From Alkalicoccus daliensis (GTDB lineage: Bacteria > Bacillota > Bacilli > Bacillales > Salisediminibacteriaceae), in assembly GCF_900103955.1 (NCBI RefSeq), contig NZ_FNIL01000016.1:1-64000 (forward strand): a stretch of DNA of 64,000 bases, read 5' to 3'. Position 1 is the stretch's first letter, and the number at the start of each line of letters is the position of its first letter. The notes under the pieces are model-generated. The model searched no databases, had not been told where the DNA came from, and worked only from the letters and a program-made list of their open reading frames with translations. The translations under genes and the position numbers were made by a program. Shown here piece after piece: positions 30,432 through 34,375 of this stretch.

Positions 30432-32072
30432 TTAAAGTTTAAAAGAACTCTTCAATCCAACGATGCGGTTAAATATGAGCTTTTCTTCTGTACTGTCCTG
30501 CGGATCTACATTGAAGTAGCCGTGTCGGAAAAACTGAAATTTGTCATTTGGCGCTGCCTCTTTCATATTCGGCTCTACAAATCCATGCTGTACAGTAAGC
30601 GATGCTTCATTTACATGATCAAGGAAGTTGTTCCCTTCAGCTTCATCATCGATCAGCGAATCATACAGACGGAATTCTGCAGGCACCGCCTGGGAAGCTT
30701 CTACATAGTGCAGCGTTCCTTTAACTTTACGTGCGTTAAAGCCGGAGCCGCTCTTTGTTTCCGGATCATACGTACAGTGAAGCTCTGTGATTTTACCATT
30801 TTCATCTTTCACGAAATCATGGCACTTAATGAAGTATGCATGCTTAATGCGGACTTCGTTTCCTGGGAAGAGACGGAAATATTTTTTCGGCGGGTCTTCC
30901 ATAAAGTCTTCTCTTTCAATATAAATTTCTTTCGAGAATGGAATTTCCCGCATACCCATTTCATCGTTTTCCGGATTAATATCTGCAGGCAGCCATTCTA
31001 CGTGGCCTTCCGGATAATTTGTAATGATTACTTTAATCGGATCAAGCACTGCCATTGTCCGTGGTGCTTTCAGCTTCAAATCTTCGCGCAGAAAATGTTC
31101 CAGCATCCGGAAATCTACGAGGTTATCCGCTTTTGAGACACCAATTTCCCGGCAGAACTGCTTAATGGATTCCGGTGTGAATCCGCGGCGGCGCAGGCCG
31201 GAGATTGTCGGCATCCGTGGATCGTCCCAGCCGTCTACGTAATTTTCATCCACCAGCTGTTTCAGCTTACGCTTGCTCATTACTGTATTTGTTAAATTCA
31301 AACGAGCGAATTCAATCTGCTTCGGTGTGCTTTCCAGATTCGCATGAGCTATTACCCAGTCGTACAACGGACGCTGATCCTCGAATTCCAGTGTGCAGAG
31401 AGAATGTGTCACTCCCTCAATCGCATCCTCCAGCGGATGAGCAAAAGAATACATCGGATAAATGCACCAAGTATCACCTGTATTATGATGCTCGGTATGG
31501 GAAATGCGGTAAAGAATTGGATCTCGCAGATTAATATTTGGAGAACTCATATCGATCTTCGCCCGAAGGACTTTTTCTCCGTCCGCAAATTTCCCCTGGC
31601 GCATCTGTTCAAACAGCTCCAGGTTTTCTTCTATGCTTCTTGTACGGGAAGGACTTTCTTTGCCCGCTTCGGTCAGTGTGCCGCGGAGCTCGCGAATTTC
31701 CTCCTGGGAAAGATCCTCTACATAAGCCAGCCCTCTTTCTATCAGGCTTACAGCCTGCTTGTACATATCTTCAAAATAGTTCGATGCAAAGCGGAGCTCT
31801 TCCGGCTCATATCCAAGCCATTCAATGTCTGTTTTAATTGCATCTACATATTCTTTATCTTCTTTTAGAGGGTTTGTATCATCGAAGCGTAAATTCGTAC
31901 GGCCGTGAAACTCGTCTGCGAGCTCAAAATTCAGGACGATTGATTTTGCGTGGCCGATATGAAGATAGCCGTTCGGTTCCGGTGGAAATCTGGTTACTAC
32001 TTCTTCATATTTCTTTTCTTCCATATCCTTTGTCACGATGTGCTTAATGAAATGGGTATTATTTTCACTCAT
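30432..32072 (-). CDS. glnS: Glutaminyl-tRNA synthetase
   Basis: A 546-residue class I aminoacyl-tRNA synthetase that charges tRNA-Gln directly. The HIGH motif is HIGH at 38-41 within [15 protein letters not shown], and the KMSKS motif appears as MSKRK at 265-269. GlnRS-specific features such as the catalytic-core FDDTNP and the C-terminal beta-barrel anticodon-binding region are complete. Most Firmicutes lack this enzyme and make Gln-tRNA with GatCAB, so the gene was probably acquired. Start is supported by AAAGGTGAG. It lies 57 bases after the methyltransferase gene with no terminator between, so the two share the leader described at 33346-33513. Confidence 0.96.
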
Positions 32073-32129: not shown

Positions 32130-33323
32130 CTATGTTAATTTTTTTATAAAAAATACTTTCAGGTAATTCCCTTCGGCAAAAGAAGAATGTGTAACAAAAT
32201 CCTCCGGCAGAGAATAAGATTCCTTTATTTCGTATTCATGCCCGTTTTCCTTAAATGCCTGGTCAATAAAAGAAAGAAATTTCTTTTTGGATAAGCCTGC
32301 ATGATTTGTAGAAGCGATAATGAGTCCTCCGCTGTTTGTGATAGGAAGTGTCTGTTTTATCAGTTCCCCATAATCCTTCGAGGCACGGAAAGTCGTTTTT
32401 TTCGTCCTGGCAAAGCTTGGCGGGTCCAGTATCACAATATCGTAGTTTTCTTCCCGTTTTGCAGCTCTGCGGTAATAGGCAAACACATCATCCACAATAA
32501 TTCTGTGCGCTGCGGGATCAAGTCCGTTCACACGGAACTGCTCTTCTGTTTTTGCTTTGCTCCGATTTGCAGCATCAATACTTGTGGTATGAGAAGCTCC
32601 TCCAAGCGCCGCAAATACAGAGAAGGCACCCGTATAAGAGAAAGTATTCAGCACCGTTTTCCCTTGGGAGTATTTATCCTTCAGCGTTTTTCTTACTTCC
32701 CGTTGATCCAGAAAAACGCCTGTCATGGCGCCGTCATTAAGGTAGACTGCAAAAGTAACACCGTTTTCTTTTACGAGAAGCGGGCTCTCTGCCTTCTCTC
32801 CCGTTACAAAGTCTTCATCTTCCACATACTTGCCTTCTTCTGCAAAGCGTTTTTTCTCATAAATTCCTTTTGCATCAGTGGAATTTAAAAGGAGGTTAAT
32901 AATCGTTTCTTTAAAGGAATATATGCCGGCACTGTACCATTGCAGCAGATAGTAGCCGTCGTAGTAATCGATGATTAAACCGCCGAGCCCATCGCCTTCT
33001 CCGTTCAGCATGCGGAATGCAGTCGTATCTTCAGAAGCAAGGAGCTCGCTGCGTCTGCCAAGTGCAATCATCAGTTTTTTCTCAAACAGTTTTTCATCGA
33101 CTGCTTCTTTTTCTTTCTGTGTGAGAATCCACCCTACGCCTTTGTTCTGCTCGCCGTAGTAGCCGCGGCCGATAAATGTACCGTCTTCCAGTACAACTTC
33201 CAGGAGCTGTCCTTCTTCCTGCAGCACGTGCGGATTGGCGACAGCTTCTTTGAGCAGCAGCGGAAAGCCTGCCTGATATTGTTTTTTATATTTCTGCTTT
33301 ATTTTCAGCGTAGTCAGTTCCAT
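32130..33323 (-). CDS. Class I SAM-dependent rRNA methyltransferase (RlmI/YwbD-like)
   Basis: A 397-residue methyltransferase with an N-terminal PUA-like region, an EEHEL-like middle domain and a C-terminal Rossmann fold. SAM-binding and catalytic motifs are LNTFSYTGAFSVFAALGGA, ILDPPSFARTK (the DPPSF motif of 5-methylcytosine enzymes) and GGLIIASTNHAG. RlmI methylates C1962 of 23S rRNA in E. coli. The frame extends 51 codons upstream, but GGAGGAAAG just before the ATG at 33323 marks the start, and the upstream part encodes a terminator hairpin rather than protein. First gene of an operon with glnS. Confidence 0.9.
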   Translation of the reverse strand: MELTTLKIKQKYKKQYQAGFPLLLKEAVANPHVLQEEGQLLEVVLEDGTFIGRGYYGEQNKGVGWILTQKEKEAVDEKLFEKKLMIALGRRSELLASEDTTAFRMLNGEGDGLGGLIIDYYDGYYLLQWYSAGIYSFKETIINLLLNSTDAKGIYEKKRFAEEGKYVEDEDFVTGEKAESPLLVKENGVTFAVYLNDGAMTGVFLDQREVRKTLKDKYSQGKTVLNTFSYTGAFSVFAALGGASHTTSIDAANRSKAKTEEQFRVNGLDPAAHRIIVDDVFAYYRRAAKREENYDIVILDPPSFARTKKTTFRASKDYGELIKQTLPITNSGGLIIASTNHAGLSKKKFLSFIDQAFKENGHEYEIKESYSLPEDFVTHSSFAEGNYLKVFFIKKLT

Positions 33324-33345
33324 ACATCTTTCCTCCTCCGGACAC

Positions 33346-33391
33346 AAAAAAACCGCATCGATCCCAACGTTTGTTGATTCATCACTGCGGT
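33346..33391 (-). terminator. Leader terminator (attenuator) before the methyltransferase-glnS operon
   Basis: Minus-strand arms ACCGCA (33391-33386) and TGCGGT (33357-33352), with inner pairs GAT/ATC and CAAC/GTTG, followed by seven T. It stands between the promoter region and the first start codon, so it must be read through for expression. An alternative pairing ATTTCAC with GTGATGAAT places ACCGCA in a loop and would block the terminator. The 5' arm region TGGAACCGC also resembles the T-box core UGGNACCGCG. Confidence 0.75.
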
Positions 33392-33402
33392 TCCATGTGA
33401 AA

Positions 33403-33447
33403 TAGCTCTCCCTTTTTCGCTTTTTTAAAATCGAAAAGGCAGAGCTA
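33403..33447 (-). promoter_or_regulatory. Leader hairpin overlapping the leader-peptide stop codon
   Basis: TAGCTCT-CCTTTTCG pairs with CGAAAAAGG-AGAGCTA. The first three bases of the 5' arm are the TAG stop of the leader peptide, so a ribosome finishing or stalled near the end of the peptide would disturb this hairpin. Confidence 0.65.
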
Positions 33448-33483
33448 GTTCTGTTGTTGAAGTTGTAGGCGGGCATTCATCAT
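33445..33483 (-). CDS. Gln-rich leader peptide of the methyltransferase-glnS operon
   Basis: A 12-codon frame reading MMNARLQLQQQN, with four Gln codons among residues 7-11. It starts 10 bases after an AGGAGG (33499-33494), the only strong ribosome binding site in the leader. A further hairpin (GAAGTT 33513-33508 with AACTTC 33464-33459) can enclose this site. The position before a terminator and upstream of glnS suggests that translation of Gln codons senses charged tRNA-Gln. Whether the peptide is made is not shown; a second ATG at 33480 is in the same frame. Confidence 0.5.
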   Translation of the reverse strand: MMNARLQLQQQN

Positions 33484-33519
33484 ATCGCGCCATCCTCCTG
33501 CTTTTTAAACTTCTATAAA

Positions 33520-33546
33520 ATTATCATAGACCAAAAAAGATTGCAA
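33520..33546 (-). promoter_or_regulatory. Candidate promoter of the methyltransferase-glnS operon
   Basis: TTGCAA (33546-33541) and GATAAT (33525-33520) are separated by 15 bases, shorter than ideal. It lies directly after the fdhD stop codon, and transcription would begin near 33512, giving a leader of about 190 bases. Confidence 0.4.
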
Positions 33547-33547
33547 C

Positions 33548-34375
33548 TCAGTCTTCGACGATGCGCTCTGGATGGGTGTAGACATTAAAACGGTTCTTGC
33601 GGATAAATCCAACGGCTGTAATACCGAGATCCTCTGCGAGATCCAGTGCCAGTGTTGTAGGTGCAGATTTGGACAATACAACTCCTACACCTATTTTAGA
33701 CACTTTTAACAGCACCTCTGAAGACAGACGTCCGCTGAAAACAATTACTTTATCCCGAAGCTTCACTTTATTTCGGACGCAGTAGCCAAAGACTTTATCG
33801 AGCCCGTTATGCCGGCCGATATCCGACCGTGTTAACAGCAGTTCCTCCGGCGTAGCGATACCCACATTATGGAGCCCGCCGGTATCGTGAAAGTCCTGGG
33901 AGTTTTCCTGCATATCCCGCATTCTCGCCATGATCTGCTGCGGCGTAATCGTCACATCTGTTGTGACTGTTTTTGCAGTTCTGCGGTCATTTTCAAAGTA
34001 AAACTGCCTGCTTTTGCCGCAGCAGGAGCCAATGACCCGCTTCGATACCCCGAGCCGGTCCAGCGGGCGCATTTCTGTAAGCTCTGCATAGACGAGCCCT
34101 TTTTCTTCCGAAATGTTTAAAGAGGTCACGTCAGATGCTTTTCTGATAATACCTTCAGATAATAAAAAACCGTAAGCCATATCTTCTATATAAGAGGGCG
34201 TGCATAAAAGTGTAGCGAATTCTTCCCCATTTACGTACATTGTCAGTGGTGCTTCCACCGCTACAAAATCCTTCGGCTGTTCCCATCCTGCCTCGTTGTA
34301 TGTTTTTATTGTTCGCTTGTTTCGCACTGATTCTGCCTGTAATTTTTCATGATCGATCATGAAACTCATCCCCAT
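33548..34375 (-). CDS. fdhD: Formate dehydrogenase accessory sulfurtransferase FdhD
   Basis: A 275-residue FdhD that passes sulfur from a cysteine desulfurase to the molybdenum cofactor of formate dehydrogenase. The family CxxC region appears as GSCCGKS, followed by HDTGGLHNVGIAT, TRSDIGRHNGLDK and FSGRLSSEVLLKV. No formate dehydrogenase or Moco gene is in the window. Several closely spaced ATG codons (34375, 34369, 34360) make the exact start uncertain. Confidence 0.93.
   Translation of the reverse strand: MGMSFMIDHEKLQAESVRNKRTIKTYNEAGWEQPKDFVAVEAPLTMYVNGEEFATLLCTPSYIEDMAYGFLLSEGIIRKASDVTSLNISEEKGLVYAELTEMRPLDRLGVSKRVIGSCCGKSRQFYFENDRRTAKTVTTDVTITPQQIMARMRDMQENSQDFHDTGGLHNVGIATPEELLLTRSDIGRHNGLDKVFGYCVRNKVKLRDKVIVFSGRLSSEVLLKVSKIGVGVVLSKSAPTTLALDLAEDLGITAVGFIRKNRFNVYTHPERIVED

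Follow-up and report, generated by a model that had tools for sequence, protein, structure and literature searches.

A Gln-codon leader before a methyltransferase-glnS operon of Alkalicoccus is related to the His-codon leader of hisS* and probably acts as an attenuator

In Alkalicoccus daliensis, a two-gene operon of an rRNA methyltransferase gene and glnS is preceded by a short open reading frame with a cluster of Gln codons, a hairpin, and an intrinsic terminator. By sequence comparison, this unit is homologous to the His-codon leader that stands before hisS*, a paralogue of the histidyl-tRNA synthetase gene. We think it likely that the unit attenuates transcription by way of its leader peptide, sensing charged tRNA-Gln and raising expression of the methyltransferase-glnS operon on shortage. 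Sensing of Gln-tRNA is well supported by comparison; any one set of switch pairings is clearly less certain than the attenuator as a whole. We also lean towards the view that an attenuator changed specificity in nature, such that a His-tRNA cassette came to precede the glnS operon and was redirected to Gln-tRNA with its RNA frame kept.

Structure of the leader and operon

All parts of the unit lie on the minus strand of the window, the 64,000-nucleotide stretch of DNA that we analyzed. A putative promoter, TTGCAA-14 nt-TGA-TAATTT (33518..33546), has a 17-nt spacer and an extended -10, and starts one base past the stop codon of fdhD, which ends at 33548. The Shine-Dalgarno sequence AGGAGG (33494..33499), also found in relatives, is separated by ten bases from the ATG (33483) of the leader ORF, MMNARLQLQQQN (33445..33483 including the stop codon). 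Its 12 codons and stop read ATG ATG AAT GCC CGC CTA CAA CTT CAA CAA CAG AAC TAG, with Gln encoded by CAA, CAA, CAA and CAG. The stop codon (33447-33445), UAG in the RNA, is the first triplet, at the base, of the stem of hairpin A:B, TAGCTCTGCC...GGGAGAGCTA (33403..33447), which shows covariation and one conserved G.G mismatch. A NusG-pause-like CTATTT (33405-33400), recognized from motif counts as a possible pause site, overlaps the foot of A:B; with the linker UUUCACAUGGAA it fills the stretch up to the terminator (33391..33405). The intrinsic terminator C:D, AACCGCA...UGCGGUU (33346..33392), is evident from the sequence, from relatives and from covariation. It ends in seven T (33352-33346), and the ATG of the methyltransferase gene, 33323, lies 22 bases downstream.

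The first gene of the operon (32130..33323) encodes, by similarity, an RlmI/YwbD-like 23S rRNA cytosine methyltransferase, which scores under the curated cut-offs of the NCBIfam models closest to it. The second gene (30432..32072) is glnS, for glutaminyl-tRNA synthetase (725 bits against TIGR00440, cut-off 426). The original prediction had described AGGAGG, the ten-base spacing, the 12-codon ORF with four Gln codons, the stop codon at the hairpin base, and a seven-T terminator just before a methyltransferase-glnS operon, and all of these were confirmed on the minus-strand sequence and, for glnS, with TIGR00440.

Searches of the window with general tools added little. C:D was absent from the output of a generic terminator scan of the window, most likely on account of its loop, which is longer than the 3-8 bases that the scan permits. 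At the gathering level the sole Rfam match in the whole window was a tRNA elsewhere, and at E up to 1 positions 33300-33600 gave three microRNA matches far under their cut-offs and otherwise nothing. ORFs of 8-25 codons led by a Shine-Dalgarno sequence and containing at least 4 Gln codons occurred once in the 64-kb window, compared with 0.067 expected from 60 first-order Markov sequences. Conservation in relatives is stronger proof that the leader ORF is real than this chance estimate.

Two other features of this region were considered. A 448-aa ORF (32130-33476, minus strand) is in the methyltransferase frame, which differs from that of the leader ORF, and has its ATG inside the leader. We rejected it as the methyltransferase start, as the three nearest relatives (G001, G005 and G007) have 398-aa frames there. 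Separately, a GTG directly follows the T run (33343-33345 in the window) in 8 of 9 Gln leaders, and comes two bases later (ATGTG) in G013; we found no role for it.

Gln leaders in related genomes

We found the promoter-leader-terminator unit before methyltransferase-glnS in 9 of 35 genomes of the family: all eight Alkalicoccus genomes and the single genome of genus g7 (G013). We read approximately 450 nt or more before glnS in the 35 genomes and, where the methyltransferase gene and glnS adjoin, some 300 nt or more before the methyltransferase gene. glnS itself is present in 35/35 genomes, so it stands without the Gln leader in 26. glnS lies behind the leader at all nine Gln loci, although in two it is cut by a contig end.

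Following the comparison suggested by the original prediction, we found that the Shine-Dalgarno sequence, the ATG and the Gln codons are kept in 9/9 leaders of methyltransferase-glnS operons, that the ORFs are intact, and that the hairpins covary. The leader peptides are MMNARLQLQQQN, MNAAERVQFQRQSRLCLSDC, MKAAERVQFQRQSRLCQSDC (twice), MIPLIRVQFQLQR, MKNAHTYMTIQQQQ, MNTPIRRQQQQI, MILYRAQQQHKLCFFPRAEQ and MLTARSVHVQQQK. In every one, precisely 5 nt separate an in-frame CAG (Gln) from the GCU of the hairpin behind it, and Gln is also encoded two codons upstream of that CAG; most other residues vary. The ORF continues through A into the hairpin loop in four of the nine.

In a tree of 30 GlnRS proteins, the 7 from genomes with the leader fall into one clade (SH-aLRT 99), which the g6 GlnRS joins in an open fork (support 90). 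Among 80 named methyltransferase loci, glnS was in the fetched flank in 4, and a pattern test on 350 nt upstream of each locus detected the leader in these same 4 only. Three observations weigh against our reading of the leader as a sensor for glnS. In three g6 genomes the methyltransferase gene is beside glnS and the leader is absent; glnS has no such leader in 26 of the 35 family genomes; and gatB is present in 35/35, so Gln-tRNA may also be made without GlnRS.

One genome of the family, G033, has a second, divergent copy of glnS (58% identity), with a T-box approximately 350 nt upstream (L069:698-956, plus strand; RF00230, 119 bits). Sensors of two kinds may therefore serve glnS in this family.

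Conservation of the hairpins

Both hairpins covary. A joint alignment held 59 leaders. L224, whose terminator is quite different, and the misaligned G004 were left out, and leaders found later (L233-L236 and L238-L240) are outside the covariation counts. In A:B and C:D together (30 pairs), 90.8% of cells were paired, compared with 84.3% in shuffles, and 19 of the 30 pairs had two-sided changes; these values were reached in 0/500 shuffles, which ignore kinship. The Gln leaders taken alone (8 leaders) had two-sided changes in 5/17 pairs (3/500 shuffles as high, kinship again ignored). The G.G mismatch of A:B was present in 56/59 rows. The stop codon lies at the base of A:B in 46/49 His leaders and in 4/8 Gln leaders counted, and in the His rows this stop and its partner were UAG-CUA (39), UAA-UUA (7) or UAG-UUA (3). 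By these alignments, the intrinsic terminator before the operon is conserved and covarying.

Homologous His leaders before hisS*

The kinship of the Gln leader with a His leader of bacilli is not visible from the window alone. It appeared when we searched with R1, a covariance model for which 8 Gln leaders were used. With E up to 0.05, R1 had 62 matching places, spread over 59 of 397 genomes of the order. Of these places, 52 had E <=8.5e-6 and comprised 7 leaders of the Gln kind and 45 with His codons, all 45 of which we read; the Gln-built model matched His leaders at E down to 1.9e-13. The ten weak places (E 3.5e-4 or above) held no such leader on reading and were dropped, as were four further places from another R1 search. 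That other search contributed 7 more His leaders, a search for hisS* contributed 3 (family leaders in G021, G026 and G030 that R1 had missed), and a model called R2 contributed 4, for a total of 59 His leaders.

The gene behind the His leaders is hisS*, which scored above the cut-off of NF009085 in the three cases tested and which tblastn placed downstream in 57/59 His loci across Bacillales. The two loci without it are L168 and L234. At L168 (1501-1614) an intact His leader has no hisS* within 1.5 kb behind it, and the next gene, by our reading of its sequence, encodes a HAD-like hydrolase; we take this as a probable orphan or re-used attenuator. At L234 (1501-1623) an intact His leader precedes a decayed hisS* with in-frame stops. 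Two other loci depart from the common form. In G020 (C1:2927984-2929213) hisS* has one internal TGA and the His leader is intact. At L224 (in G021), approximately 160 nt upstream of hisS*, A:B and the linker are kept, the terminator stem is wholly different (ACGCCCA... for ACCGCA...), and the leader ORF terminates inside the hairpin arm.

The His and Gln leaders have in common A:B with its G.G mismatch, a similar linker, the ACCGCA/UGCGGU terminator, and the type of promoter, as in the aligned His leader L172, UACAACUUCAUCAUCAC, and window leader, UACAACUUCAACAACAG. The promoter pattern TTGNNN-N14-TGN-TANNNT is upstream of 9/9 Gln leaders and 46/49 His leaders. The window leader matches the hisS* type in its RNA frame and lacks the His run and a downstream hisS*/hisZ.

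The codons differ with the gene behind them. There are 147 His codons in 49 His leaders, and 33 Gln codons against 3 His codons in 9 Gln leaders; the three His codons are single, in three of the nine. Gln codons are not rare in the His leaders either, with 78 in the same 49, often as a CAA immediately ahead of the His run (judged by eye), so the mere presence of Gln is no sign; the sign is the run at the hairpin foot. That the codon run tracks the amino acid of the downstream synthetase would be explained if the codons are sensed. Sensing of charged tRNA-Gln through translation of the leader, as proposed in the original prediction, is therefore favored by the comparison, both by the tracking and by the Gln codons kept in all nine. 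Relatives with the hairpins and without the Gln run, which that prediction had counted against itself, do exist, but they precede hisS* and carry His codons, and this strengthens the case for codon sensing.

More distant searches returned few matches. A single-protein scan of genome contigs and an alignment scan of viral contigs gave no confirmed relative. R1 matched 1 of 398 genomes in a sample of the class, the window's own. R2 matched 6/398 in the class sample (the window's own genome, four that carry His leaders, and G486, in which we found no leader on reading) and 1/398 in a sample of the phylum, again the window's own. R2 was poorly suited to wide searches, as it scored 8 of approximately 300 to 2,800 first-look candidates per genome in the rows listed, so the few matches beyond the order do not demonstrate absence there.

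Origin and change of specificity

The His leaders are widespread in the order, and the Gln leaders that we found are confined to one clade. Since a model of Gln leaders finds the His leaders of hisS*, the glnS leader is most likely a hisS* attenuator in which CAU/CAC changed to CAA/CAG. We suggest that a hisS* cassette came before the operon, that third-base changes from CAU/CAC to CAA/CAG retargeted the leader, and that hisS* was lost in the Gln-leader lineage. hisS* was above cut-off in 10/35 family genomes, and at E 1e-60 there was none in 8/8 Alkalicoccus genomes and 1/1 g7 genome, two of these nine being approximately 80% complete.

A tree of the RNA without its codons grouped seven of eight Gln rows (100/100) and did not place G013. 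A single Gln clade was not rejected (p-AU 0.577) in this tree, which is limited by few columns, long branches (above 0.6 changes per site for some Gln leaders) and an unsure root. A separate, second re-aiming in G013 is possible, as is the reverse direction, from Gln to His.

If re-aiming did occur, the leader family would amount to a re-programmable, modular sensor of aminoacyl-tRNA in bacteria whose transcription reportedly outruns translation, the two being held in step through a hairpin pause. It would be a natural case of one regulatory RNA frame serving two amino acids, with specificity residing in the third bases of a few codons. Having two homologous elements makes leader-peptide attenuation directly testable through codon swaps, and bears on whether the position of a ribosome can steer RNA polymerase in Bacillota.

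Proposed switch

We propose that the ribosome's dwell time decides the outcome. When Gln-tRNA is short, a ribosome delayed at the Gln codons by the foot of A:B would prevent this hairpin from refolding, the terminator would fail more often, and glnS would be read. When Gln-tRNA is plentiful, the ribosome would finish and leave, its departure would permit A:B to refold, and transcription would end at C:D. We hold to this logic because the alternative that we modelled was contradicted and the predicted antiterminator is weak.

That alternative paired a hairpin E against an antiterminator F, with A:B formed in the ON state, and we dropped it after a test on 58 leaders. In the calculations, the codon in the A site gave the ribosome's position and 13 nt were taken as covered. 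Under the E/F model, a ribosome stalled at the first control codon should disfavor the terminator more than one at the stop does. A difference of >0.5 kcal/mol in this direction was obtained in 0/49 His and 3/9 Gln leaders, and in the opposite direction in 16/49 His and 5/9 Gln leaders. When its A site holds the first control codon, the modelled ribosome barely clears A:B, which can then fold; once at the stop codon, it lies over the 5' arm. The geometry of the classical trp attenuator is thus not reproduced.

We then compared the predicted chance that the 5' arm of the terminator is already paired before the 3' arm exists. For Gln leaders this was 0.37 at the first Gln of the cluster, 0.38 at the last Gln, and 0.40 at the stop. 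For His leaders the means were 0.12 at the first His, 0.34 at the last His, and 0.25 at the stop. Pairing rose by >0.1 from the first to the last control codon in 34/49 His leaders and 0/9 Gln leaders, and fell as much in no His leader. The modelling therefore predicts a weak antiterminator for the His leaders only. In several of them the pairing is that of the GC of B with the GC of C around UUUC-UCAU-GAAA. Helix H, formed by this sequence in the linker, was 82.0% paired with 47/500 shuffles as high, which is not clearly beyond shuffles, and we rejected it. Helix G (H plus the GC of B with the GC of C) was 86.7% paired, with 21/500 shuffles as high and little covariation.

In the nine Gln leaders, predicted pairing gave no convincing antiterminator, and the doubt about the exact switch that was voiced in the original prediction stands. 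The small pairing offered there as a block to the terminator, ATTTCAC with GTGATGAAT, fared in part: its core, UCAC:GUGA, is in the best fold of the window leader at the stage when the 3' terminator arm has yet to be made, but we did not find it at homologous positions in relatives.

A:B and the T-rich stretch behind it might act as a pause of the NusG type, giving the ribosome time to catch up. CUAUUU or UUAUUU is behind A:B in 35/59 rows. The strict TTNTTT is in just 10 or 11 rows and absent in the window, so the pause role is a suggestion. The published motif is TTNTTT at -11 to -6, and its hairpin lies 11-12 nt from the RNA end on the upstream side (PMC12288461). According to Johnson et al. 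2020 (cited in PMC7858274), transcription in Bacillota runs ahead of translation, and in B. subtilis a leader peptide together with NusG pausing controls tlrB (yxjB) (PMC6851288). A pause here would answer how a ribosome keeps pace under runaway transcription (PMC7858274), as shown for tlrB (PMC6851288).

Alternative explanations

We weighed four other readings, each improbable in our estimate. The least improbable reverses the logic: a ribosome at the stop would cover the 5' arm of A:B and free B for readthrough, so that the operon is on when Gln-tRNA is plentiful and off in starvation. That most His leaders and half of the Gln leaders counted have their stop codon at the A:B base is consistent with this, as is the terminator being less favored at the stop in the 16 His and 5 Gln leaders noted above. 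In addition, moving the ribosome from the first His codon to the stop increases pairing of the 5' terminator arm in 20/49 His leaders, with the opposite in 1. However, the last His codon gives still more pairing than the stop, no Gln leader's 5'-arm pairing shifts by >0.1, and GlnRS and HisRS would be lowered when most needed. A little less probable is that the Gln leaders are decayed relics of a His leader, with a terminator that does no more than lower expression and codons that are drifting. The orphan His leaders without hisS* at L168 and L234 indicate that such relics could exist. Decay is difficult to reconcile with two-sided changes in the hairpin pairs among 8 Gln leaders, and with nine intact ORFs that retain a Shine-Dalgarno sequence and Gln at the same two codons despite the long branches.

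The original prediction had also named antibiotic-responsive attenuation of the rRNA methyltransferase; on this reading, which would follow the style of tlrB or erm leaders, the Gln codons are incidental. An rRNA methyltransferase gene is indeed first in the operon, and tlrB offers a precedent for such control, yet this reading was not supported and we consider it very unlikely. Among the 80 named methyltransferase loci, the pattern test found the leader only with glnS in the flank, and the homologous leaders stand before hisS*, not methyltransferases. None of the 9 peptides has, by eye, a C-terminal R/K-X-R/K, the motif given in PMC6851288. We give least credence of all to a T-box or other ligand-binding leader with a coincidental ORF. 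T-boxes are often used for synthetase genes of Bacillota (also PMC2965389), and one is near the second glnS of G033. But no T-box or other bacterial Rfam family matched the leader region (33300-33600) at E up to 1, and the Gln or His codons track the synthetase. Sensing of charged tRNA-Gln through the leader peptide remains the reading that we prefer.

Comparison with known systems

The trp and pheST leader-peptide attenuators of enterobacteria combine control codons with a terminator. The enterobacterial trp, his and pheST attenuators share with the Gln leader control codons, a terminator, and synthetase genes as possible targets (his: PMC9413887). In contrast to them, the control codons here are upstream of the first hairpin arm, and there is no match to an Rfam leader family. 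The usual sensor of tRNA charging for synthetase genes of Bacillota is the T-box (RF00230), which reads uncharged tRNA directly; it has no match here, neither at gathering level in the window nor at E up to 1 in 33300-33600.

In Bacillota, the Leu-rich attenuator peptide of S. aureus ilv is amino-acid specific and experimentally supported; the operon there is biosynthetic and the amino acid different (PMC5794164). A predicted regulatory RNA before glnS of Shewanella was flagged with a terminator and an attenuator. It is listed as a tRNA synthetase leader, in another phylum, and the part of PMC2659441 that is available describes no Gln-codon peptide. We found no published description of a Gln-codon leader before glnS in Bacillota, in a search that scarcely covered the subscription literature.

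The closest relatives are His leaders. Attenuators of his operons in the B. cereus group and other Firmicutes have a leader peptide with three to five His in a row (PMC9413887). Likened by description, they share with the Gln leader a short leader peptide and attenuator and terminator hairpins, before other genes; the accessible text of that paper has no mention of a Gln or glnS leader. His leader peptides were predicted upstream of hisS* and hisZ in bacilli by Naville and Gautheret in 2010 (PMC2965389), in whose main text 'glnS' occurs 0 times. Our identification of the His leaders with theirs rests on the gene and the description, as given in the available part of that paper. The His version was predicted in 2010, and we found no earlier report of a Gln version. 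The hisS*/hisZ attenuator has a His codon stretch before the same hisS paralogue that follows our His leaders; the leader described here has Gln codons and stands before a glnS operon.
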